From IMG/VR virus record IMGVR_UViG_3300034102_000237, positions 1 to 22,233 of that record: DNA of 22,233 nucleotides. The stretch is one strand, 5' to 3'. The position numbers were made by a program, and so were the translations under genes. Shown here piece after piece: positions 2,707 through 20,969 of this stretch. The notes under the pieces were generated by a model, which worked only from the letters and a program-made list of their open reading frames with translations, ran no database searches and had not been told where the DNA came from. This DNA is from a virus. Each line of letters starts with the position of its first letter. Position 1 is the first letter of the stretch.

Positions 2707-3025
2707 CCGTTACAGATGCCAGTATCTCATAAAAACGAAACGTGTCATCTACATTCCTAATTGAATGAATAGTGAAAAAATTTAACTCGTAAAGGATTCG
2801 CATGTCCTTTGTAGGTGCAAAGTCTTTTCTATACCGTATTGTAAACCTAAAGACTTGATTTATGACCTGTTCTTGCGCTTGTAACTGTCTATTGCCATCG
2901 TATGGCTTTATGTTTGACCATGTAGCCAATACAGGCACAAACGTAATCACGTAATCCTGATAGGCATTTTCAACTGAGCTGAACGTGCCAAATGTAATTC
3001 TTTTGTCTAATCTGCCCGGATTCAT
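2687..3025 (-). CDS. Head closure / head-tail adaptor protein (SPP1 gp16-like)
   Basis: 112 residues starting MNPGRLDKRITFGTF, a typical N-terminus of the SPP1 gp16 / phage head-tail adaptor family (x-G-x-L-x-x-R-I-x-x). It continues with VLATWSNIKPYDGNR and EQVINQVFRFTIRYR, corresponding to the usual W-a-x-I-x-P-x-x-G and FxIRYR segments. The protein would close the connector channel after packaging and bind the tail. Its ATG shares the A of the upstream stop codon (TAATG at 3027-3023), so translation is likely coupled to the gp6-like gene. Confidence 0.88.
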   Translation of the reverse strand: MNPGRLDKRITFGTFSSVENAYQDYVITFVPVLATWSNIKPYDGNRQLQAQEQVINQVFRFTIRYRKDFAPTKDMRILYELNFFTIHSIRNVDDTFRFYEILASVTDDNNGV

Positions 3026-3525
3026 TAGAATAAAGTTATGCGTCTATATGGTGAAAGCAAAAGAGTTGCAATCGTAGGCATACCCACAACTGGATTATCC
3101 CTGTTCTCGTAATAAAAAGTTATCATTTCTTTTATTGCAGTTTCAATATCGTCTGGCACATCAGATCCGCCCTCATAATTCCATCCATAACCAGCGACAT
3201 AAGTAACTGTGTTAAATCCCGGCGCTCCGGATATTACTTCTGTGTAGCCTTGCGTTTCGATTGTTTCAAATGTCAAGTCATCCATATCAGGATTCTTAAC
3301 AGACTCAACCGCAATCAAAGGATATTCATATATTTTTAGCGCACCTGTTGCTGGAGTTATTGCAGTTAATTGCCTTTGCCATAATACTTGCAAAGTAAAC
3401 TGTTCAGCTTGATTTACCGCAGATTTTATTAATGATGTTATTAAGCCATCTTCGATTGTGTAATCTAGGTCTAATCTCAGGTACATCTTCGCATCCGCTA
3501 GGCTCACTACATTTAACTGGTTCAT
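3025..3525 (-). CDS. Head-tail connector protein (HK97 gp6-like)
   Basis: 166 residues. The N-terminus (VSLADAKMYLRLDLDYTIEDGLITSLI) is the characteristic start of gp6/Phage_connector family proteins: a V-[ST]-L-x-x-A-K-x-[HY]-L-R-x-D helix followed by acidic residues and LI..LI. It also has YEYPLIAVESV and ends with helical sequence containing IETAIKEMITFYYENRDNP. It forms a ring under the portal and starts the neck. It is the first structural gene after the glycosyltransferase cassette, 8997 to 3525 being a gap in the usual capsid-to-connector order. A different-frame ORF (3404-3571) overlaps its first 122 bases. Confidence 0.9.
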   Translation of the reverse strand: MNQLNVVSLADAKMYLRLDLDYTIEDGLITSLIKSAVNQAEQFTLQVLWQRQLTAITPATGALKIYEYPLIAVESVKNPDMDDLTFETIETQGYTEVISGAPGFNTVTYVAGYGWNYEGGSDVPDDIETAIKEMITFYYENRDNPVVGMPTIATLLLSPYRRITLF

Positions 3526-3571
3526 TCTGTTTAGGTTTAAAGGGTTGTTTTAAATACTCTTTTTTTTCCAT
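3404..3571 (-). CDS. Possible small protein overlapping the connector gene start
   Basis: A 55-residue ORF starts MEKKEYLKQPFKPKQNEP, and its ATG shares one base with the stop of the preceding glycosyltransferase (TAATG at 3573-3569). The same junction type links other genes in this operon. It continues in another frame through the first 122 bases of the connector gene and ends at a TGA at 3404-3406. It fills the otherwise empty 45 bases between the two genes. It is lysine-rich at the start and has a CSEPSGC segment, but no family I recognise. The overlap with a well-supported gene argues against it. It could be a coupling ORF that brings ribosomes to the connector start. Confidence 0.3.
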   Translation of the reverse strand: MEKKEYLKQPFKPKQNEPVKCSEPSGCEDVPEIRPRLHNRRWLNNIINKICGKSS

Positions 3572-4515
3572 TACGATAATGCTAAATTACATATTTTATT
3601 TAACCAATTTTCAAACTTGGGTAATTCCTCCGCAGGATCTAATTGTTTTGCCCTCTCTAAAGGCGTTTTCTTAGTCTGGATTGTATCAATGTTAGAAATA
3701 GCATCTATCCAACCATCTATATCGTTTCTCTTGACAAATATCCCTGCATCTCCAAGACTATCTCTGAATCCAAGTATATCAGATGCAATGACAGGAATAT
3801 TGCAACAGAGAGCCTCTATTTGAGCCATTCCGTAACTCTCATACTCGCTTGGCGCAATAAGTACCTTTGTCATGGCTAAATATTTGCGAACATCATCAAT
3901 TAAAGGTACATATTTTATATTCCTGACTTTTTCGTCTTTTATCTGATGATAGTAGCCACCTTGCACCGCCATAAATTTAACTTTAGGCATTCGCTTTGCA
4001 ATCTCTATTAATATCTGACCGCCTTTGTTTTCGTTATGGTTTATCAAAGTGACATATTCTGCATTTATTCTATCTGTAGAATAATCTCGGTAATCTATTG
4101 GCGCATACAAAGTATAGGTTTCCTGATTGTAATTTAACTCTCGCTTTGTGTTCTCGCAGTTATAAACTGTATAAGTATTATGTCTAATGTTAACCTGCGG
4201 ATAGCCTACGTTATTATGAGCAAAGTTTATAACCTTTTTAGGGTTTAGCCTTTGTTTATTCATGGCATAATAAGTGCCTGATAGTTGGCAGAACACCAAA
4301 TCTGCCCAGTCCCATAAATCATTATGACATTGCTTGTAATTGTCTTTAGCCTTGTAAACTTGTATGCCCTCAAAACTGTAATTCTCAGGACATCTAGTAA
4401 CTGCTTTAACCTCATGACCTTTGCTCATTAGATAAGTTACAACCCGATGCAAATAAATTTCAGATCCTGCCCTTTGGTGAGGTAAGTAAATGCCTGGACT
4501 TAGTAAGATGTTCAT
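3571..4515 (-). CDS. GT-B glycosyltransferase, family GT4-like
   Basis: 314 residues with the two-domain GT-B layout. The N-terminal domain begins MNILLSPGIYLPHQRAGSE and has SKGHEVKAVTR, the usual 'sees a long loop, then G-G-[AS]-E' nucleotide-sugar fold start. The C-terminal donor-binding domain includes NHNENKGGQILIEIAKRMP near 159-177, VKFMAVQGG, and SEYESYGMAQIEALCCNIPVIAS near 223-245, where E226 and E234 form the E-x7-E motif. DAGIFVKRND follows near 257-265. It would transfer a sugar from an activated nucleotide donor; donor and acceptor cannot be read from sequence. There is no signal peptide, so it acts in the cytoplasm. It is the last gene of the cassette and overlaps the previous gene by four bases. 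Confidence 0.9.
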   Translation of the reverse strand: MNILLSPGIYLPHQRAGSEIYLHRVVTYLMSKGHEVKAVTRCPENYSFEGIQVYKAKDNYKQCHNDLWDWADLVFCQLSGTYYAMNKQRLNPKKVINFAHNNVGYPQVNIRHNTYTVYNCENTKRELNYNQETYTLYAPIDYRDYSTDRINAEYVTLINHNENKGGQILIEIAKRMPKVKFMAVQGGYYHQIKDEKVRNIKYVPLIDDVRKYLAMTKVLIAPSEYESYGMAQIEALCCNIPVIASDILGFRDSLGDAGIFVKRNDIDGWIDAISNIDTIQTKKTPLERAKQLDPAEELPKFENWLNKICNLALS

Positions 4516-5117
4516 GTTACAGGAATAAACAGATATGGTCTTTGTATCTTTAATGTTCTGCCATCGTAATTATGCAGGTCGCTTCTATGATAGTGTATAG
4601 CTTGTATTCTTGTAGCTGGATTATAAAGCGCATAACCTGCACTATGTAACTCATAAGCAATCCGATTATCACAACCCGGTATGCCTAAATAAAAGTCACA
4701 GAAATTAACATTGCGCATCTTGCCCTTAAATATCCAGACATCTTGACTAAAGCGCTCATTATGTAACTTTAAACCTCCTATCTTATCATCCCACCTGCTT
4801 AACGCTATGCATTGCCGTTCATTTAAAGTCAACTGGCTAAGCGTATGGTTAAAATAAATATCTGTATTTGCAACCATTGATATATCATCCCTGCTTGTGA
4901 CTGTTCTGTCAATCAGATTAAAAAAGTCTCTATATGTTGGTCGCTGAAATGGTATAATTACTAATTTGTCAGAATTTGGCAACTCAACAAAACCATCTAC
5001 AAAAAGATAAATTTTATTTATATGAGGATTCTCTATGTTTTTATTTAAGCAGTAGATTAATTCCTTTTGCCTGATTGCGCTTTTATCGGTATAAATTGAA
5101 GTAAATAAATTAATCAT
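4512..5117 (-). CDS. GT-A-like glycosyltransferase-family protein
   Basis: 201 residues. Residues 81-89 (MVANTDIYF) have the N-T-D-I-Y-F form of a DxD-type metal and nucleotide-sugar site. Further conserved-looking blocks are IALSRWD at 104-110, SQDVWIFKG at 124-132, GIPGCDNRIAYEL at 145-157 with GYALYNPA, and AIHYHRSD at 173-180. This combination resembles a group of small uncharacterised GT-A-like proteins found in surface-glycan gene clusters, but I cannot name a family with certainty. It overlaps the methyltransferase gene upstream by eight bases and the GT4-like gene downstream by four. No membrane segment is seen. Confidence 0.65.
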   Translation of the reverse strand: MINLFTSIYTDKSAIRQKELIYCLNKNIENPHINKIYLFVDGFVELPNSDKLVIIPFQRPTYRDFFNLIDRTVTSRDDISMVANTDIYFNHTLSQLTLNERQCIALSRWDDKIGGLKLHNERFSQDVWIFKGKMRNVNFCDFYLGIPGCDNRIAYELHSAGYALYNPATRIQAIHYHRSDLHNYDGRTLKIQRPYLFIPVT

Positions 5118-5664
5118 AAATAGCTATGCCTGTACCTGTATGATGTCCTATATGTGTTAAATCGTATTTTTCGTTCTTTAATCCATTCCAGAAATTACTA
5201 ATTTCATTGTTTAAATAAATGTCATCAAACATGACTAAGCCTTTGTAATTAATCTTTAGCAAATGATCAGCAAACTTTTGCTCAAACTCGCCGTCATGAT
5301 AAGTATCTAGCATTATAAAAGGACTTGCAATCTCATACTTTAAAACATCGCCTTTTATAAATTTTATGTTAGGTATTTTAATTTCCGCTATCTCTGGCTG
5401 ATGCTCAATGTCATAACTGATAACTTTATTCTTTTTGTTAAATGACAAAGCTATGGCAGAGCTTCCCTGATAACTTCCAATGTCTAGCAAAGTAACTCCG
5501 TTATATAAAGTGCTTATATAAGCTAGTAATCTGTAATGCTCAAGTCCTGCATCCATGTAAAACCACCCTTTAGGAAATCCTAGATCATCCGTACTCTTTA
5601 GATACTTAGACAGATTGATTGCATTTAACTGCTCTGCCGTAACTTTTAATATTTTATCAATCAT
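5110..5664 (-). CDS. Class I SAM-dependent methyltransferase
   Basis: 184 residues. Motif I is LLDIGSYQGSSA at 59-70. It is followed by the motif II acidic residue in ISYDI (82-86), a KGDV at 104-107, MLDTYHDGEFE at 118-128, and a post-motif strand GLVMFDDIY at 142-150. This is the layout of the Methyltransf_24 type and of small O-methyltransferases common in glycan clusters. The D-x-x-H-D and F-D-D residues could bind a metal. Its placement among five sugar-transfer genes suggests it methylates a sugar or the glycan end rather than DNA; this is inference. There is no DNA methyltransferase motif IV (N/DPPY). Confidence 0.85.
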   Translation of the reverse strand: MIDKILKVTAEQLNAINLSKYLKSTDDLGFPKGWFYMDAGLEHYRLLAYISTLYNGVTLLDIGSYQGSSAIALSFNKKNKVISYDIEHQPEIAEIKIPNIKFIKGDVLKYEIASPFIMLDTYHDGEFEQKFADHLLKINYKGLVMFDDIYLNNEISNFWNGLKNEKYDLTHIGHHTGTGIAIYD

Positions 5665-6223
5665 ATTGATTTAGTAAAAGGTTATAATTTTTATGATACT
5701 TATCTATGGCGTGATAACCTACTGAGCCATATTCAAACTCTGTTTCAACGGCAAACTTATTGCAGGTTGCCTTATCGGGTAATTTATAACCTAGCTCACG
5801 CATCTTATTAGTAAAGTAAATATCTTCATTCCCATGTACTGCCATTCCTTTATACCGATGCTTTGAGCAAATCTCATACATTAGCTTAGGATTTCTAATG
5901 CTTAAACCTCCATTCATGCAGCCTGGTATATTTTTAATCCACGATCCTATAAAGTCCCATTCTAAAAACTCCTCAATGCCATCTTTTAATAATCCAGAAT
6001 CATGCTGAAATATTAGCACTCGATCATACCGGCATCCCTGCCAGAAAGATGGATTTGTCAAGACTGCATTGTAATCCTTGGCAGACTTTAAAGAATAGAT
6101 ACCTCCAGCATAGGGCGGTTGAATGTGAAAGATATCCCATGACTTAGGTATAAACCTTTTATGTCTTGCGATTGCTTCCTGAGCCACATCTTCTCGGTCA
6201 TCTATAATTATAGCTGCATTCAT
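5657..6223 (-). CDS. DUF5672-like putative glycosyltransferase
   Basis: 188 residues. Blocks seen are VLIFQHDSGLL at 69-79, the acidic-plus-G sequence WDFIGSWI at 89-96, GCMNGGLSIRN at 101-111, HGNEDIYFTNK at 130-140 and the late GSVGYHAIDKYHK at 166-178. The series Q-x-D, D-[FY]-[IV]-G, N-G-G-[LF]-S-[LI]-R, E-D-[IV]-[FY]-F and G-x-H is how I recognise the DUF5672 family. Members are GT-A-like and sit in glycosylation clusters, with Q-H-D as the likely metal-binding triad. It overlaps both neighbours (4 and 8 bases), so it is expressed with them. Confidence 0.8.
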   Translation of the reverse strand: MNAAIIIDDREDVAQEAIARHKRFIPKSWDIFHIQPPYAGGIYSLKSAKDYNAVLTNPSFWQGCRYDRVLIFQHDSGLLKDGIEEFLEWDFIGSWIKNIPGCMNGGLSIRNPKLMYEICSKHRYKGMAVHGNEDIYFTNKMRELGYKLPDKATCNKFAVETEFEYGSVGYHAIDKYHKNYNLLLNQYD

Positions 6224-6969
6224 ACTAATACCTTGTTATAATTATGATGACTCTTTAAATAGCTAGGCAATACTGATTTATCAAACTTTACAGGATTCCA
6301 CAAGTTAAACGCTACACAATGCACATCGCCAAATTGGCTATTAGGTTTCCATTTATAGTAAATATCATTTAACCAGTCTTTTCTAACTTCGTGAGCATGA
6401 CCGAAAACATTATACTTGTATCTCATAATCGGCTCTGGCTGACAGGTGCTAAAATGAAAGATAGTCTGTTTTAAGTTTAAATCCTGAGTATGTTCTTTTC
6501 TATGCAAATTCTCTAATCGTATCGGTCTGAATCCATCATAACATGCATAGTTAAATGAACGCCAAAAGTTTATAAAGCCATCAATGCCATAAAACCTATG
6601 TACGCCCCAGTAAGCATATTCAAAAGAGGCTTGTAACTCATCGGATTTATAAACCTCATCCGAATCTACTGTCAAAACCAAATCATAACCCTCAGAGTAT
6701 TTATACTTGACAGATCTATGGTCATTTTCTGCCCCATATCTGTCTGCTCTGTCCCAGATTAATTTATCTTTTAATACATCCTGACAAATGCTAAATATAT
6801 AACCCTCTGAATCTGGGCATCTTAATAGCGTTCCATGACCTTGCGATGGCATCATACTATAAGCAATTACCATTTTATCTACATGATCTACAACCGACAT
6901 AAGAGCCTCACGCAAGTAATCACCTGCATAGTGAATAGTCATAAAACCTAAAACTTTAATTTTGCTCAT
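6220..6969 (-). CDS. GT-A (GT2-like) glycosyltransferase
   Basis: 249 residues. The N-terminus IKVLGFMTIHYAGDYLREALMSVVDHVDKMVIAYS has the strand-helix start typical of glycosyltransferases of the GT2 type. LVLTVDSDEVYK at 97-108 has the D-x-D-E metal and donor-binding motif. Later segments (PIRLENLHRKEHT, KQTIFHFSTCQP, HAHEVRKDW) contain histidines that could complete the metal site. It lacks transmembrane segments, unlike many GT2 synthases, so it is probably cytoplasmic. Overlap of four bases with the DUF5672-like gene and 14 with the upstream 135-residue gene indicates coupled translation. Donor sugar unknown. Confidence 0.8.
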   Translation of the reverse strand: MSKIKVLGFMTIHYAGDYLREALMSVVDHVDKMVIAYSMMPSQGHGTLLRCPDSEGYIFSICQDVLKDKLIWDRADRYGAENDHRSVKYKYSEGYDLVLTVDSDEVYKSDELQASFEYAYWGVHRFYGIDGFINFWRSFNYACYDGFRPIRLENLHRKEHTQDLNLKQTIFHFSTCQPEPIMRYKYNVFGHAHEVRKDWLNDIYYKWKPNSQFGDVHCVAFNLWNPVKFDKSVLPSYLKSHHNYNKVLV

Positions 6970-7363
6970 ATTCTAATTCTTTACCAGTTAATGCAAAATA
7001 TAGGTTTTGAAGTTGGTGAACGTATTGCAATAAATTATATTTTATACGATTTAAATTACCAACATTAAAATCACCGTACCAAAAATCTACTCTGCCATTT
7101 TTGTAAAACTGAAAAGCAAAAGATCTTGGATAAATACCATCTTTAAAATATCTGTTCCAATTCCCATGTTTATTATTTTCAAAACCAAACTTTAATAACC
7201 ATTCTTCGGTTAGTAAGATAGGATCTAATTCTAACTTCTCTAAATGAAATTGATAAATACCAGTAGCTAATATTTGAGTAAATCCATTAACAGTTTTATA
7301 CTGGGCATTTTTGTCTTTAACAAAATTCCCAATTCTTAACTCACTTGCTTTCATATATACCAA
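6956..7363 (-). CDS. Small Bacteroidota phage-type protein (unknown function)
   Basis: About 135 residues from the ATG at 7363; the more likely start is the ATG at 7354, giving MKASELRIGNFVKD. The recognisable parts are the MKASELRIGN start, LTEEWLLKFGFE in the middle and YVHQLQNLYFALTGKELEY at the end. This arrangement is one I know from many small uncharacterised proteins in Bacteroidota genomes and their phages and mobile elements. No function is established to my knowledge. It lies between two glycosyltransferase genes and is AT-richer than the capsid gene: two 60-base lines counted within it hold 15 and 17 G+C, against 26 in a line of the capsid gene. It may be a late insertion into the cassette. 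Confidence 0.85.
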   Translation of the reverse strand: MVYMKASELRIGNFVKDKNAQYKTVNGFTQILATGIYQFHLEKLELDPILLTEEWLLKFGFENNKHGNWNRYFKDGIYPRSFAFQFYKNGRVDFWYGDFNVGNLNRIKYNLLQYVHQLQNLYFALTGKELEYEQN

Positions 7364-8255
7364 TTAAATTCTTTACCATGTTATCAAATGTATAATTAGC
7401 CTTGACAAACTCATTGCCTTGCTTTGCTATTAAATCCCGTTCCTCTTTATGGTCATCCAAATAATATCTTAGCAATACCATTAAATCATATAAACTATTC
7501 CATGTCCTAACGTGAACATGATCTATAAAAGGCATATTTGGATAAGCCTTGCATAAACAGAACGCACCAGAGCCTAATATTCTGTAAATCCTATCAGAGC
7601 TATAAGAATCTTCGTCATAATGGCTCAGGTTAATAGCTATCTTTGTAGCTCTATATGCTTTTGATTCCTCTGCCTGTGAATGATTATAGTTACCGGCTAC
7701 GTTAAACCAGTTATTTCCGTAAACGCCGTACTTATCGCCAAAGTGTTTATGTAGCATCGTATTCATGTCTATTCGTAATCTGCTTAAAGGAAATTTATCG
7801 CCTCCGTAATTATTACCAAAAAAAGAAATCTCTCTGCAATTACCTATATCGCCGTCTGGCTTATATATCTCAGGATCGTAACCTATCTCTAAATATCCGC
7901 CGTTCGCTACGTTTGCCACATCTCGCATATTAGAAAACAAAGTCTTGTCAATGTAAGGAGCCATCTGTATCATCCATGCAGGAGTTTCATTTCGTATATC
8001 GCCGTTCCAATTACAAATCCATGCGCCTGTTTCACGCATAGCTTTAACTGTTTCAATATGTATAATGTTAGGTGATTGAATCTGCATAAAGATGATATCG
8101 GGCCTAAACTCTCTGGCAATCCTCACCGCCTCTTGGTTTACATCTTTTACGCCTGTTGATAGTTCGATGTAATCATCACAATTTGCAATAAAGGCTTTAC
8201 GTGCCGAATCATTAGGAGGTGGCGCAACCATTAATCCTAAATGGAAAATTCTCAT
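7341..8255 (-). CDS. GT-B glycosyltransferase, CgeB / Glyco_trans_1_2-like
   Basis: 304 residues. The N-terminal half carries MRIFHLGLM, REFRPDIIFMQIQS at 48-61 and a strand-rich domain with GAWICNWNGDIRN. A block KIAINLSHYDEDSYSSDRIYRILGSGAFCLC spans 205-235, followed by a Y-P, and is the signature of CgeB-type donor-binding domains: N-[LI]-x, then S-x-R-x-[FY]-[EI]-x-L-x-x-G-[AG]-x-x-L. The C-terminus has YYLDDHKEERDLIAKQGNEFV and YTFDNM, also family-typical. It would transfer a sugar from a nucleotide donor in the cytoplasm. It is the first glycosyltransferase of the cassette and starts within the stop of the 58-residue gene (ATGA). Confidence 0.88.
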   Translation of the reverse strand: MRIFHLGLMVAPPPNDSARKAFIANCDDYIELSTGVKDVNQEAVRIAREFRPDIIFMQIQSPNIIHIETVKAMRETGAWICNWNGDIRNETPAWMIQMAPYIDKTLFSNMRDVANVANGGYLEIGYDPEIYKPDGDIGNCREISFFGNNYGGDKFPLSRLRIDMNTMLHKHFGDKYGVYGNNWFNVAGNYNHSQAEESKAYRATKIAINLSHYDEDSYSSDRIYRILGSGAFCLCKAYPNMPFIDHVHVRTWNSLYDLMVLLRYYLDDHKEERDLIAKQGNEFVKANYTFDNMVKNLIGIYESK

Positions 8256-8428
8256 ATTTTACGGATGTTATCCCAATCTCTCAGGAACTCTAATATTGAT
8301 GGGTAATTTATACGACCTGCTCCGCACTTTCTGCGCACATGAATCCAACCATTTATAACGCCAATACAGATTTTATACTCTTCATTCTTGTATAGTCCTG
8401 CTTCACCGATAAAGTTGGCTTTAAACAT
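8252..8428 (-). CDS. Small protein of unknown function
   Basis: A 58-residue ORF. Its ATG (8428-8426) shares one base with the stop of the ribbon-helix-helix gene (TAATG) and its TGA overlaps the ATG of the CgeB-like glycosyltransferase (ATGA). Tight coupling on both sides is the main evidence that it is real. It begins MFKANFIGEAGLYKNEEY and ends in FLRDWDNIRKI, with a short strand-rich middle (CIGVINGWIHVRRKCGAG). I recognise no family. There are two cysteines and a basic patch, but no membrane segment. Confidence 0.65.
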   Translation of the reverse strand: MFKANFIGEAGLYKNEEYKICIGVINGWIHVRRKCGAGRINYPSILEFLRDWDNIRKI

Positions 8429-8559
8429 TATTTGATTAATTTTAATCCATCCTCAATAAGCAATACTGTCATAGCGGATTTAGACCGCTTTTCTTTTTTA
8501 GTTAGCTTGATAATTTTTTCATAGACATCATCAGGCATTATTACTGTGATTCGTTTCAT
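8428..8559 (-). CDS. Ribbon-helix-helix (CopG/Arc-like) DNA-binding protein
   Basis: A 43-residue protein. The sequence KRITVIMPDDVYEKIIKLTK is the classic RHH start: a short beta strand with alternating residues (R-I-T-V), then helix A after P-D-D. Helix B follows with SKSAMTVLLIEDGLKLIK. RHH proteins act as dimers that place the strand pair in the DNA major groove and often bind cooperatively to tandem sites 10 to 12 bp apart. Two TTTACCAC repeats 10 bp apart lie upstream (8913-8930), overlapping the promoter candidate. I infer autoregulation of the cassette. Its start follows the stop of the 114-residue gene with no gap. Confidence 0.85.
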   Translation of the reverse strand: MKRITVIMPDDVYEKIIKLTKKEKRSKSAMTVLLIEDGLKLIK

Positions 8560-8904
8560 TTAGTGATAAATTATGTCTAAAAAATTAATCATAGCCTTGT
8601 AATTTAAAAAGCAATAGATTAAAAATGTTTGAGTTTTTGGATTTAATGCCGTTTCACTTGATTCCCAATATTCCATTACAAGAGCTTGCAAGTTAAAAAT
8701 ATCTGAAGGCCCTATTATAGAAACAGGGTTGTGAGATATTTCAGTATTATTGTCTTGATTAATAACTAAAAAAAAATTATAATCCTTATTTAATAATCTT
8801 GTAATACCGTCAACTATTTCATAGCTTTCAATAACATCTAATTCTTCTAGTTCTCCATCAATCCGCTCCTTAGTTATCTTACACTTTATATTTTTTGTTT
8901 TCAT
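8560..8904 (-). CDS. Unknown protein, first gene of the accessory unit
   Basis: 114 residues starting MKTKNIKCKITKERIDG and ending in LDIIYH. It is lysine-rich at the N-terminus, acidic in the middle and hydrophobic near the end (TFLIYCFLNYKAMINFLDI), possibly a helix. No family is recognised. It is the first gene after the terminator and candidate promoter, and is directly followed by the RHH gene with no gap, which resembles a regulator-partner pair such as a toxin-antitoxin or co-repressor unit. That comparison is only inference. The codon makeup is notably AT-rich compared with the capsid gene. Confidence 0.6.
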   Translation of the reverse strand: MKTKNIKCKITKERIDGELEELDVIESYEIVDGITRLLNKDYNFFLVINQDNNTEISHNPVSIIGPSDIFNLQALVMEYWESSETALNPKTQTFLIYCFLNYKAMINFLDIIYH

Positions 8905-8945: not shown

Positions 8946-8973
8946 AAAAAAAACCTGCCGATTTCTCGACAGG
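8946..8973 (-). terminator. Intrinsic terminator after the capsid gene
   Basis: Minus-strand sequence CCTGTCGA, loop GAAA, TCGGCAGG (8973 to 8954) forms an 8-bp stem with one G-U pair and a four-base loop. It is followed by eight U residues (8953-8946), a further base, then more U. It sits 24 to 51 bases after the capsid stop at 8997-8999. This is a textbook rho-independent terminator and separates the head operon from the accessory cassette. Confidence 0.9.
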
Positions 8974-8996
8974 CTTCCCCATAAACACTAAAAAAG

Positions 8997-10199
8997 TTAG
9001 CTTGGATTAGCATTAAGTGAACCAGTCACAAATGCATCAGTATAGTAGATAGGTAAAGCAATTCTACCTTCAACACGAACTGTAATCTTGTTCTCACGAA
9101 CGTTAGTACCATCTTCCTCAAAGAATCTTACAATAGGATTCTCACGTACAAATAGCTGCGCACCTTTTGCCCAGTCTCCAACGATGTACTTAGAATCACT
9201 CATTGCAGTAGACTTAAAGATAGGAACTCCAGAGATAAACAACTGACCATTTACAAGATCAACTGCAACTCCACCTGGAAGGGTGTAGTCATTAGTAGTT
9301 CCTCTAGTAAGCATTAAAGCATAAAACTGCTCTGGACTTAACAAGATACCATTTGCAGAGTGGTTATTGCTTTCAACTTGTGCAATTGAATCTAGCAACT
9401 TCTCAACTTGAATAGTACGAAATCCTGAGTAAGCCTCAGCGTTAGTAATTAAACCACCTAGCTGCGGAGATACACCAGTCCCATTCAATAGCTGATTATC
9501 TTCTGCATCTAAATATTGCTCTAACAAGCGGCTTTGAAGATAAGAACGCATAGCTGAGATATCATCTAAAGCCTTGCGAGTAATCCGCAAGAATCCTGCG
9601 ATAAACTCACTTGGTGCAACCTCTTCTGTCAAATCGTAATCAATCTGTGATTTTGTTCCAGAGTTATCTAAGAACGGAGATACCGATCCCTCTGATCCTG
9701 TCTCTTGAAGATAGTGAATTGCAGAGGTAGTCATAACTCCAGTAGGAAGTAAGGATCTGATGTGCAACTTACGTGGCGCAGCAGGAATGATACCTGGTAG
9801 CATCTGCACGTTTGCAGCAGCAAGATCAGTAATGTTAGCTAATGACATATCGCCAACTGTCTTTAATTCCATTGCAAACTGCTTGATCTCTTTTCTACGG
9901 AATTTCTCCAAATTATCAGAGTTCTCATCCATAGCAGTAGCAAATGCTTGATTGAAAGAAATTGGGTTTGCTTCTTTAGCATCCATTTTTATTCTGTTAG
10001 CTTGTGATTGCGCTTCTAACAATGCTTTGTCCATTGCATCAATTCTAACAGATGTAGATTTTTGCAATTCCTCTAGCTTTAAATCAGCTGCCTTTGTAGC
10101 TTCGCTGATAGCGTTTGCGATGATAGTCTTTGCTTCATCTAATGTTTTGGCTTTGTTTGCATCTAGCAACTCCTGAGCCTTTAATTCTAAATTGTCCAT
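8997..10199 (-). CDS. Major capsid protein, HK97 fold
   Basis: 400 residues. The first 80 to 110 residues are helical and charged (SEATKAADLKLEELQKS and similar), like the HK97 delta scaffold domain that the prohead protease removes. The mature part starts around the ISFNQAF to DMSLANIT region. Family features include PGIIPAAPRKLHIRSLLP, the E-loop region IHYLQETG, ITRKALDDISAMRSYLQSRLLEQYLDAEDNQLLNGTG as two stretches, LLSPEQFYALMLTRG and YIVGDWAKGAQLFVREN. It is encoded directly after the protease, three bases apart, the HK97 order. The visible terminator follows. It is the likely most abundant virion protein and therefore a possible acceptor for the glycosyltransferase cassette. Confidence 0.95.
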   Translation of the reverse strand: MDNLELKAQELLDANKAKTLDEAKTIIANAISEATKAADLKLEELQKSTSVRIDAMDKALLEAQSQANRIKMDAKEANPISFNQAFATAMDENSDNLEKFRRKEIKQFAMELKTVGDMSLANITDLAAANVQMLPGIIPAAPRKLHIRSLLPTGVMTTSAIHYLQETGSEGSVSPFLDNSGTKSQIDYDLTEEVAPSEFIAGFLRITRKALDDISAMRSYLQSRLLEQYLDAEDNQLLNGTGVSPQLGGLITNAEAYSGFRTIQVEKLLDSIAQVESNNHSANGILLSPEQFYALMLTRGTTNDYTLPGGVAVDLVNGQLFISGVPIFKSTAMSDSKYIVGDWAKGAQLFVRENPIVRFFEEDGTNVRENKITVRVEGRIALPIYYTDAFVTGSLNANPS

Positions 10200-18395: not shown

Positions 18396-18598
18396 TCTTT
18401 CTGCATTAATTTTACTTTTTCCTCAATATCCGCCCTTTGCTCTGGGTATTTTTTCCAAAAGAACCTTTCCCTTGCTAATCTGTAATTTCGCAAGAAATCA
18501 GGTTCTTTGTACGGCTTTGGCTTTGCTTTGTAGGTTTGAACTTTTGGGTGTTCAATTGCATCGCCCAGGCCGTTGGTTTTAATTAGTTTGCGAGACAT
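18368..18598 (-). CDS. Small basic protein of unknown function
   Basis: 76 residues, lysine- and arginine-rich, starting MSRKLIKTNGLGDAIEHPKV and ending in VKLMQKEWQTQDKRK. A central stretch RNYRLARERFFWKKYP looks helical and aromatic. It may bind nucleic acid, given its charge and its place between a DNA methyltransferase and a nuclease, but there is no recognisable domain. Its ATG shares one base with the methyltransferase stop (TAATG). Confidence 0.7.
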   Translation of the reverse strand: MSRKLIKTNGLGDAIEHPKVQTYKAKPKPYKEPDFLRNYRLARERFFWKKYPEQRADIEEKVKLMQKEWQTQDKRK

Positions 18599-19605
18599 TA
18601 AAATAAGGTTTCTGCTTTGTGATTATCAAATCTACTTTTAACTACTTTCATGTTTTGTATAGCTTGTTTATAGTAACTGTCTTTTAATTCAATACCTATT
18701 GCTTTTCTACCCATTGATACCGGACTATAAACCTCACTACCTACTCCCATAAATGGCGTTAAAACTATTTCGCCTGGATTAGAATATAATTCAACTAATC
18801 TATCAATTACATCAAGCTGCAAAGGGTGAACGTGTTTTTCGTCGTCATCTTCTTTGCTATCCCTAAAAGGCAATACATTATCAATTCGAATATCATCCCA
18901 AACAGATGAAGCGTAACGTTGCCAGATATAATGATTAAGCTTTGTAATTTTATCATGTTCATTAATCAAATTTAATCTTTGCCATAGCTGATCTTCATTT
19001 AGGTTAGAATCATTTGCATTATTCCATGCTCTTAAAATGTTTGGTAAAATAGGTGTTTCCCCAGCATAATGATTAATACCAAAGGGATGAACTACCGGAA
19101 CTTTGTTTTCGCCTTTTTTAGTAAATACTAAAACATAATCTGGCATTGCAGTAAAGCATTTTGTGCTATCTTCTACAATAAATTTATGCATTAAAGATTG
19201 AACCATTGTTCTCATTCTGACCTTTAAAGGTTCTTTCCAAATGGTTATGCGGTTACGATATTCAAATCCGTATTTTTCATGTAATTTAATTACCTCGTGT
19301 GGAAAATCCCAAAGTCTGCAAGTATTATCAAATACATCGGTAACATGCACCGCTGATATTCTGCCGGGTTTTGTTACCCTTGCAATTTCACTAATTAGAA
19401 ATTCGTACTGATCTAAAAATTGCTCTTTACTTTCACAATTTGAAAAGTCATTTTCAGAACTTGAATAATTATAAAGTCCTGCAAATGGAGGACTATAAAC
19501 CGATAAATCTATTGATTCATTTGCAAGTGTAGGCATTACAAGCATACAATCAGAATTATAGATTGCATAATTTTCTGTTATTATTTGGTCTTTTACGGTA
19601 CTCAT
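18598..19605 (-). CDS. DNA N6-adenine or N4-cytosine methyltransferase, beta-like order
   Basis: 335 residues. The catalytic motif IV is SVYSPPFAGLY, about 35-45, where S-P-P-F is of the type seen in N4-cytosine and some N6-adenine enzymes. The SAM-binding motif I is at the C-terminal end, TPFMGVGSE at about 283-291, with KAIGIEL at 301-307 as motif II. Catalytic motif before the SAM motif is the beta-class order. It methylates DNA after base recognition; the target site cannot be read. It overlaps the upstream helicase by four bases, and no restriction nuclease is present in the window. Self-protection of phage DNA is the natural role, by inference. Confidence 0.9.
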   Translation of the reverse strand: MSTVKDQIITENYAIYNSDCMLVMPTLANESIDLSVYSPPFAGLYNYSSSENDFSNCESKEQFLDQYEFLISEIARVTKPGRISAVHVTDVFDNTCRLWDFPHEVIKLHEKYGFEYRNRITIWKEPLKVRMRTMVQSLMHKFIVEDSTKCFTAMPDYVLVFTKKGENKVPVVHPFGINHYAGETPILPNILRAWNNANDSNLNEDQLWQRLNLINEHDKITKLNHYIWQRYASSVWDDIRIDNVLPFRDSKEDDDEKHVHPLQLDVIDRLVELYSNPGEIVLTPFMGVGSEVYSPVSMGRKAIGIELKDSYYKQAIQNMKVVKSRFDNHKAETLF

Positions 19606-20969
19606 AAGAAGTTAGGTTTTATTACTGGTTTATTAAATTCTTTAATTTTGTTTGTAAATACTCCGTTCACGTTTTCAGTTAGATTTTTATGCAATTCGAT
19701 TGCCTTTTGTGTTTTCTGTTCAATAGCTTCTAATACTCTTGTTTGACCATCTGAGATAACTAAATCAATATTGACCGGGTTCTTTTGGCCAAATCTCCAA
19801 AACCTACGAATAGCCTGATAATATTGCTCATAACTCCAGGTCGGAAAAAATACAGAATGATTGCAATGTTGCCAATTTAACCCCATTGATGTCATTTTAG
19901 CTTTAGTAATTAATCGCTTTATTTCACCATTTGCAAAAGCTAATAAAATTTCTTCTTTTCGGTCAATAGTTTGAGATCCGATTATTTCAACTGCATCCTT
20001 ATCCATTGATTTAAGATAACCGCTTTCAAGATTAGTGTTGCACCAATAGACAGAGGTTTTACCCTCGGCTAATTCAATAGCCTTTTCGCACCTTTTTATT
20101 TCAGTTTGCTTTTGTTCGTGCCTTACCTCTGTCATTGATTTAGCCATCGGGGTAAACATTTGTATTTGACCATTAATGTCAATTAGTGACTGATTTTTTA
20201 CAAAGTGCTTTTGAGTAATCAATTCCGGTAAAATATAATCCTTATCAGAAAAGCCTAAATCGGATGGCATCTTTGCCATTATTGACCATTGATTAACCCA
20301 TGAAAAAAAATCCTTTTCGGCATGAGGTTTTAAATAGAATTTTTCTCCAATATTCCGGTTATTACTATCTACGCTATTTTGATTGTTCTTAAAAAACTTT
20401 CCAAGCATATCCATATAACCCATATAACCTAAAACCTCAGAACTTGTACCTAATTCAATAAAATCATTAGGGGAAGGCGTTGCAGTTGACAAAAACCGAT
20501 AAGGCGTTTTCTTAATAAATGCAGTTACCTCAGCTTTAATTTTACCCTCAAAATTTTTCAATATTGAACTTTCATCAAGAATAACACATTCAAAGTCTTT
20601 TGTATCAAAATAATGTAACCGCTCATAATTGCAAATGACTATTTTTTTAGTAAACTTTCCATCCTTGCAATATTCAATATCATCAATCCCAATTTTATCG
20701 GCTTCAATTAAAAACTGAAAAGCTACTGCCAAAGGTGTTAAAATTAATACCCTTTTATTGGTATGTAAAATAATGTTGTTTGCAATAGCTAACTGAATTA
20801 AAGTCTTACCAAGTCCAGTATCAAGAAAACAAGCTACGCGACCTTTTCGTATTGCTTTTTTAATTACGTGTTTCTGAAAGTCAAAAGCAATATCTGGAGT
20901 GTATTTTGCTTCAAAACCAAATTCTCCGTAGCTATGCTTTTTTTGCGCTATAAAATCTTCGTATGTCAT
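19602..20969 (-). CDS. SF2 (SNF2-like) helicase
   Basis: 455 residues. Motif Q/I: DFQKHVIKKAIRKG leads into the Walker A FLDTGLGKT at 48-56. Motif Ia is LILTPLAVAFQF, motif II VILDESS at 129-135, motif III STATPSP at 161-167, and motif VI QAIRRFWRFGQKNPV at 385-399. The Q-x-x-x-R-x-x-R-x-G-Q form of motif VI is the SNF2/DEAD-like phage helicase type. It uses ATP to move on DNA or remodel DNA-protein complexes. The adjoining methyltransferase, linked by an ATGA overlap, is a recurrent phage pairing. Confidence 0.92.
   Translation of the reverse strand: MTYEDFIAQKKHSYGEFGFEAKYTPDIAFDFQKHVIKKAIRKGRVACFLDTGLGKTLIQLAIANNIILHTNKRVLILTPLAVAFQFLIEADKIGIDDIEYCKDGKFTKKIVICNYERLHYFDTKDFECVILDESSILKNFEGKIKAEVTAFIKKTPYRFLSTATPSPNDFIELGTSSEVLGYMGYMDMLGKFFKNNQNSVDSNNRNIGEKFYLKPHAEKDFFSWVNQWSIMAKMPSDLGFSDKDYILPELITQKHFVKNQSLIDINGQIQMFTPMAKSMTEVRHEQKQTEIKRCEKAIELAEGKTSVYWCNTNLESGYLKSMDKDAVEIIGSQTIDRKEEILLAFANGEIKRLITKAKMTSMGLNWQHCNHSVFFPTWSYEQYYQAIRRFWRFGQKNPVNIDLVISDGQTRVLEAIEQKTQKAIELHKNLTENVNGVFTNKIKEFNKPVIKPNFL

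Follow-up and report, generated by a model that had tools for sequence, protein, structure and literature searches.

The glycosyltransferase cassette and its head module

The window analyzed here is the entire IMG/VR record IMGVR_UViG_3300034102_000237, 22,233 bases long and a probable fragment of a siphovirus-type phage. On one strand it codes for terminase, portal, MuF, protease, HK97 capsid, connector, head-completion, tail-tube and tape-measure proteins, with terminase, portal, protease, capsid and connector in the order of an HK97-type head module of the Caudoviricetes. Between the genes for the HK97-fold major capsid protein (8997..10199, on the minus strand like the other features of the cassette and its borders given below; PF05065, 4.9e-24; phrog_10) and the gp6-like head-tail connector (3025..3525; PF05135, 1.2e-7; phrog_40) lies a cassette of predicted glycan-modifying enzymes, which is our subject. 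Profile searches place the head protease, MuF, portal and terminase on the capsid side of the cassette, and Phage_HCP, HK97-gp10, the tail tube and the tape measure (the last with a match below the cut-off) on the connector side. The host is probably a member of the Bacteroidota, since a BT4734-like N-terminal domain family is present and the relatives are Cellulophaga phages and a Chitinophaga locus.

The interval 3571-8255 is filled by seven open reading frames (ORFs) of the same strand with successive overlaps of 4, 8, 8, 4, 14 and 23 bases, and a preliminary description of the window had rightly recognized this overlapping block between the PF05065 and PF05135 genes. It had overlooked a conserved first gene, an ORF of 58 amino acids (aa; 8252..8428) with 20 aligned relatives, which returned no match in a Pfam search and shares 4 bases with the gene that follows it. 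The latter specifies GTB1 (7341..8255), a glycosyltransferase (GT) of the GT-B fold (PF13524, 5.3e-13). The last gene before the connector specifies a further GT-B enzyme, of the GT4 type (3571..4515; PF13692, 3.4e-16; PF00534, 2.6e-14; phrog_26352, 2.8e-40); an E-x7-E pattern, taken as a strict expression, is found in only 21 of 33 GT4 proteins. Three more enzymes complete the core of five: GTA1 (6220..6969) and GTA2 (4512..5117), both GT-A-like and marked respectively by a V-D-S-D-E (DxD) motif in 57 of 58 cases and an N-[AT]-D-[IV] motif in 34 of 38, and a DUF5672 protein (5657..6223; PF18922, 3.2e-26), probably also a GT, whose Q-x-D-[ST] motif is kept in 51/51. In the slot after the DUF5672 gene is a class I methyltransferase (5110..5664; FtsJ, 1.2e-3, below the cut-off) with a D-[IV]-G-x3-G motif in 27/27, a probable sugar O-methyltransferase. 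The remaining gene codes for a phrog_10066 protein (6956..7363; 3.2e-23), which we count as accessory because GTB1 is followed directly by GTA1, with nothing between, in 53 of 63 loci. No membrane segment was found in the eight cassette proteins, the highest 19-residue Kyte-Doolittle mean being 1.35. As regards the enzyme classes assigned earlier, the two GT-B enzymes stand above the Pfam cut-offs, and the DUF5672 and phrog_10066 families are upheld; the methyltransferase match is weak, and the GT-A-like pair, outside any Pfam family, is assigned by fold only.

Pfam searches with the window's GTA1 and GTA2 yielded no family match, and a hidden Markov model search of solved structures produced, for GTA1, only matches no better than E 0.3 and, for GTA2, no match at all. 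Structure prediction, a check that the preliminary description had proposed, was run for these two proteins and points to GT-A/nucleotidyltransferase folds, more clearly for GTA1 and weakly for GTA2, in AlphaFold models of moderate confidence (mean predicted local distance difference test score of 58 each, with good confidence in the first half only). The nearest structures to GTA1 in Foldseek are the protein S-glycosyltransferase SunS (best E 6.3e-4), KfiA and SpsA. In VIA-align, GTA1 scores Z 7.6-9.0 against IspD-type nucleotidyltransferases and against GT-A enzymes, among them ThuS and WrtF; these values only slightly exceed those that the program labels common. The best VIA match of GTA2 is the WrtF fucosyltransferase at Z 7.6, a value within the range of common arrangements. 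Both models fit an NDP-sugar-binding (nucleoside diphosphate) GT-A-type fold, and the proteins may have the corresponding activity. No relative of GTA1 was found in a search of genome_contigs.

Distribution of the cassette among capsid relatives

Capsid homologs were fetched blind to the cassette, as the best 80 of 112 together with a second set of 79 loci, one of them shared; 14 of the first 80 loci stop too soon past the capsid gene to be judged and 5 of 74 more distant ones lack one border, and these were left out of the counts. The cassette GT genes are present in all 70 resolvable loci (66 from the first set and four from the second) with a capsid protein 59-100% identical to that of the window over the part present; no locus in that range with enough sequence lacks them. 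GTB1 is the next core gene on the capsid's strand in 69 of these 70 carriers. In the exception (L078:6827-7378), the contig ends in a GTB1 fragment that runs opposite to the capsid gene, probably through an assembly join; this locus was counted among the 70 and not as canonical order. The five-enzyme core occurs in order in every one of the 31 loci spanning both borders, and 30 of them show, as regards core genes, exactly the order capsid, GTB1, GTA1, DUF5672, GTA2, GT4, connector. The 31st (L164) has an additional GT-B gene, for which viral_contigs yielded no other relative, and a hexapeptide protein in the slot. The distance from capsid to connector in carriers is 4049-5940 base pairs (bp), with a median of 4891. 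The block is more than a chance arrangement, to judge by this common order and by dN/dS ratios (nonsynonymous to synonymous substitution) with medians of 0.057-0.107.

At greater distance the site is empty: capsid and connector genes are adjacent in 69 loci whose capsid proteins are 41-53% identical to that of the window (the two highest values coming from short pieces), with a median gap of 95 bp and five gaps of 574-802 bp, and a profile search of their available DNA detected no cassette GT. The named relatives phi17:1, phi10:1 and 11b and a Chitinophaga eiseniae locus likewise have no cassette at the capsid-connector site. Hence, the statement in the preliminary description that all known close relatives have the two genes adjacent is false; its argument from adjacency compared relatives of the wrong depth. 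The comparison of related phages which it had also proposed shows the block throughout the window's clade and missing in more distant capsid relatives. In capsid trees, the carriers fall on one side of a single branch with support of 98 in a quick tree and 98/96 in a careful one; the latter was built from 49 thinned rows that keep L085 and L092 and leave out phi17:1, phi10:1, 11b and L086-L088, and both trees carry a long-branch warning. The cassette characterizes the whole clade (hereafter lineage A) and, within what the tree can show, was gained or lost a single time. The capsid C-terminus also differs by clade, ending in NPS or TPS in 69/70 carriers and being mostly GDFGNVA-like in 74 others; since this is a single phylogenetic contrast, we did not use it as a sign of the glycan acceptor.

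Directly after the capsid gene is a terminator-like hairpin with a T-run (8947..8980; 15 pairs; minimum free energy -16.7). Counting hairpins of -12 kcal/mol or lower in unique sequences, one is found at this place in 46/47 sequences of the window's clade versus 1/188 dinucleotide shuffles, and in 43/45 cassette-free sequences versus 2/180 shuffles. After other genes it is rare or missing: in the window's clade, 0/140 cases following five other genes show it, and in the cassette-free group it occurs in 4/58 cases after the connector, 0/42 after the protease and 0/62 after the tube gene. The hairpin is kept with and without the cassette, and the cassette therefore sits behind a capsid terminator that exists even where there is no insertion. 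Between the hairpin and the 58-aa gene, the window has a 114-aa accessory ORF (8560..8904), seen in three fetched loci with identical capsids (L005, L006 and L008) and lacking a Pfam match or a significant PHROG match, and a 43-aa ORF (8428..8559) that appears ribbon-helix-helix-like by eye only.

The slot between the DUF5672 and GTA2 genes varies: across 45 loci it holds the methyltransferase in 24, no ORF in 15, a GP88-type gene in three and a hexapeptide acyltransferase-type gene in three (one of which is L164, with its extra GT-B), the rarer types resting on Pfam runs with one GP88-type and two hexapeptide members. Other insertions comprise a PAPS (3'-phosphoadenosine-5'-phosphosulfate) reductase before the 58-aa gene, phrog_10066 or GIY-YIG proteins after GTB1, and an N6_N4 methyltransferase between GTA2 and GT4. 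PAPS-reductase-like genes between the capsid and 58-aa genes were noted at L022:1283-2107, L002:3212-3961, L011:11291-11995, L071:1114-1836 and L070:10058-10840, the assignment coming from a Pfam run on L022. Elsewhere in the window (18598-20969), an N6_N4-type DNA methyltransferase adjoins an ORF judged helicase-like by eye. One contig (G003, with L174 and L175) bears one cassette allele at its start (GTA2 91%) and another at its end (GTB1 66%); either it has recombined, or a circularly permuted genome some 34 kilobases (kb) long was assembled from a mixture.

A second phage lineage and known counterparts

A scan with a distant GTA1 uncovered a second lineage of phages from metagenomes (lineage B, loci L181-L205), in which searches detected a homolog neither of the window's capsid nor of its connector. 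It carries GTA2, GTB1, GTA1 and DUF5672 genes in this order, followed by methyltransferase and Glyco_transf_25 genes, between those for MuF and portal. The window and L181 share 42% identity in GTA2, 42% in GTB1, 54% in GTA1 and 38% in DUF5672. Lineage B also has a portal of the window's Pfam family (PF04860, phrog_11226), a virion structural protein and tail-type proteins, and the MuF homolog adjoining its GT genes is common to both lineages (33-47% over 100-171 residues). The place after DUF5672 is variable here too: of 19 loci, 11 have no additional gene there (and one of these is also without the usual methyltransferase), three have an FkbM methyltransferase, two a 250-aa protein of unknown type, and one each a hexapeptide protein and a GIY-YIG protein; the last locus ends at this place. 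Such slot variation in both lineages is as expected for the tailoring of a glycan. Lineage B thus resembles the window in its four homologous enzymes among virion genes, the variable slot after DUF5672 and the MuF homolog, and differs in having GTA2 first, in the absence of a detected GT4 homolog, in the additional Glyco_transf_25 and methyltransferase genes and in its location before the portal. In two of its contigs (G015 with L207:454-1956, and G018 with L208), a Tet_JBP-type oxygenase adjoins an FkbM methyltransferase.

Glycosylated virions are known in mycobacteriophages, for which the primary study (on Che8, Corndog and Myrna) is reportedly that of Freeman and colleagues from 2023. Three papers describe glycosylated proteins in these three phages, where glycosylation of the capsid cannot do without Che8 gp110 and Corndog gp38 (PMC12363180), glycans at the C-termini of the capsid and tail-tube proteins (PMC12619734), and a glycan shield, together with a Che8 relative whose GTs lie near the 3' end of its genome (PMC11256854). 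The precedent cited in the preliminary description, of mycobacteriophages with glycosylated virion proteins and GT genes near structural genes, accordingly holds for capsid and tail-tube glycosylation by phage GTs and, going by what that last source reports of the Che8 relative, not for the position of its genes. The window is like Che8, Corndog and Myrna in being from a tailed phage that encodes GTs; unlike them, it combines five GT-type enzymes with a variable slot, places them between capsid and connector, comes from presumed Bacteroidota phages and has a putative product and acceptor.

The best-scoring named capsid relatives of the window are the Cellulophaga phages phi17:1 and phi18:1 (32%). 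Like the window, phi17:1 has a GT and a Methyltransf_24 protein in its head module, between MuF and protease; unlike it, the Cellulophaga arrangement uses another site and a single GT of the TOD1_MUCI70 family, with capsid and connector adjacent, and a profile search within 9 kb found none of the cassette core enzymes. The phi17:1 protein (L082:5274-6946) is annotated as "DNA methylase"; as it matches Methyltransf_24 and adjoins the TOD1_MUCI70 GT, it is at least as likely to be a sugar methyltransferase. For phi18:1, PMC11946311 likewise places a GT in the structural module and counts a methyltransferase of that module as a DNA methyltransferase. A 53-bp blastn match to Cellulophaga phage phi19:3 was dropped as chance, since the short gene it falls in is of hypothetical function and gives no hint of a GT. 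A tblastn search of 50,697 phage records found no match for GTA1 or GTB1 and three for GT4, two of them from Streptomyces phage TurkishDelight. The gp20 of the latter (L168:10918-12954) is a GT4-type relative of the last cassette gene and, as in the window, is encoded among structural genes, between capsid and major tail genes; it differs in being a single GT gene of about 678 aa in an actinophage, with 25% identity. Among the matches listed from the open-licence literature there is no description of this cassette, and passage searches of PMC13033339, PMC13252515 and PMC12494034 brought up nothing about virion GTs.

A probable glycan on the virion and its alternatives

We consider it most likely, with a fair degree of confidence, that the cassette is expressed late and that its enzymes act in the cytoplasm, building a short, decorated sugar chain on a protein of the virion. 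This was also the favored guess of the preliminary description; it remains the best reading and gains support, minus the argument from adjacency and with the capsid as acceptor being a guess. The strongest argument for a glycan of the particle is that two distant lineages have homologous glycan enzymes among their virion genes and vary the tailoring at the same relative place. The reading is further strengthened by the fixed capsid/neck position across the clade, by the alternation of methyl- and acyltransferases in one slot, by cassette proteins free of membrane segments, and by the lack of an integrase, a thymidylate-synthase-family gene or, in lineage A, an over-cut-off TET-type gene in ten contigs per lineage, these family searches covering possibly incomplete contigs of 23-37 kb. 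The cassette genes are under purifying selection (median dN/dS 0.057 for GT4, 0.063 for GTA1, 0.063 for GTA2, 0.082 for GTB1, 0.107 for DUF5672 and 0.105 for the methyltransferase), and the GT genes fall within the range of the structural genes (capsid 0.089, others 0.039-0.237).

Mechanistically, the soluble enzymes would draw on nucleotide sugars of the host. In the cytoplasm, one GT would attach the first sugar to an abundant virion protein, at a serine, threonine or other side chain; the remaining GTs would lengthen this start into a short oligosaccharide, which the slot enzyme would methylate or acylate. The protein that accepts the glycan is probably that of the capsid or of the tail tube. 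The hairpin after the capsid gene would hold the cassette mRNA far below the capsid mRNA, matching the catalytic as opposed to structural amounts needed. The likely gain would be a particle surface masked or altered in a way that protects it from lectins, from grazers, from glycan-binding proteins of the host or from adhesion to debris, and swaps at the slot would create new types of glycan.

Several observations weigh against this reading. GTB1 is split into two frames in one locus (L050:3519-4429), the GTA1 and GTA2 models are of moderate confidence, and an epimerase family was found in none of ten lineage-A contigs, so that the sugar donors would have to come from the host. The two lineages are not fully independent, having a MuF homolog and the Phage_portal family in common. 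Moreover, in 27 loci with all of eight genes, the pairwise distances of GTB1, GTA1, GTA2 and GT4 follow those of the connector (r 0.93-0.95) rather than the capsid (r 0.46-0.57), with DUF5672 at r 0.79 and 0.71, respectively; overall, the cassette fits the capsid (r 0.46-0.71) worse than it fits the connector and Phage_HCP (r 0.79-0.97). Across the fewer loci (14) that have twelve genes, the correlation is 0.69-0.82 with the capsid, 0.55-0.67 with the protease and 0.89-0.97 with the portal, which lies beyond both. Several phages have capsids 92% identical and cassette enzymes only about 60-80% identical. It seems to be the capsid-protease pair that has been swapped, amid linked genes to which the cassette belongs, an argument against tight co-evolution of cassette and capsid. 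These correlations disfavor a closely fitted capsid acceptor and are compatible with a generic, tail or neck acceptor. To the same side of the balance belong a Tet_JBP oxygenase over the cut-off in 2/10 lineage-B contigs and a phrog_854 "glucosyltransferase" outside the cassette in 2/10 lineage-A contigs (L175:4580-5233; G009:7108-7662).

These last two signs favor hypermodification of DNA, with the GTs building a glycan on a modified base of the phage genome and the slot enzymes methylating or acylating it. Multi-GT hypermodification of DNA is reportedly known elsewhere, from work by Pyle and colleagues in 2024. The enzymes that would make a hydroxymethylated base are nonetheless sparse: the thymidylate-synthase family (PF00303) is found in 0/10 contigs of each lineage and Tet_JBP (PF12851) over the cut-off in 0/10 of lineage A, within possibly incomplete contigs, and the family matched 0/14 control genomes, leaving the two lineage-B matches as the only positives. 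A weak Tet_JBP match in G006 (14 bits, below the cut-off and inside an 832-aa frame) was treated as chance. A TET-like gene was not found in four of six lineage-B contigs read whole, all six of which keep the GT core, and the cassette is placed with late head genes and not with replication genes; on balance, modification of DNA strikes us as quite improbable. Modification of the host surface, in which the enzymes would alter the lipopolysaccharide, capsule or surface glycans of the infected cell late in infection and thereby block superinfection or the sticking of progeny to debris, is a common reading of phage GTs. PMC8008677 prefers modification of the host capsule for a GT encoded close to portal and capsid in "Gratiaviridae", and PMC7029224 reads pelagimyophage GTs in the same way. 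A relative of GTA2 in Synechococcus phage S-SKS1 (35% identity) also adjoins an annotated nucleotide-sugar epimerase. Against this, the cassette is placed among morphogenesis genes in two lineages and its proteins lack membrane-spanning segments; Phage_integrase, at 0/10 contigs in each lineage, gives no sign of lysogenic conversion. Serotype-converting (gtr-like) cassettes consist of an integral-membrane GT and a flippase in a temperate phage, and neither the hydropathy of the eight proteins nor the integrase count resembles that arrangement. We therefore regard a role at the host surface as unlikely.

The site also takes a PAPS reductase, a DNA methyltransferase, a GIY-YIG endonuclease and GP88, and its hairpin is present without any insertion, raising the thought that the cassette is a collection of morons, taken from hosts into a permissive site behind the terminator, where each has its own use and there is no common product. 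Yet the five enzymes stay co-ordered in 31/31 loci while other genes come and go, four homologs are found together again in lineage B, and the cassette genes are under purifying selection; we consider such an origin very unlikely.

We return to a glycan on the virion, for which the cassette is most likely a larger, modular variant of the phage virion glycosylation already known in mycobacteriophages. More tentatively, and as a possibility we would give somewhat less than even weight, it could be a portable virion-glycan cassette of at least two distant lineages, with a fixed GT core writing a common oligosaccharide and a slot in which methyl-, acyl- and glycosyltransferases are swapped, switching the "glycotype" by recombination. 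The variable slot suggests diversifying pressure on particle glycans in environmental phages. Going by contigs of 25-35 kb, the phage genome has perhaps 33 kb, of which the cassette is about one seventh. A portable cassette of this kind would be a phage counterpart of O-antigen serotype variation. If the reading of a virion glycan is right, about a seventh of the genome is spent on coating the particle with a tailored sugar. Virion glycosylation would then occur outside the mycobacteriophages, the phages for which PMC12363180 and PMC12619734 report it, and the cassette would serve as a marker for finding glycosylated virions in metagenomes.

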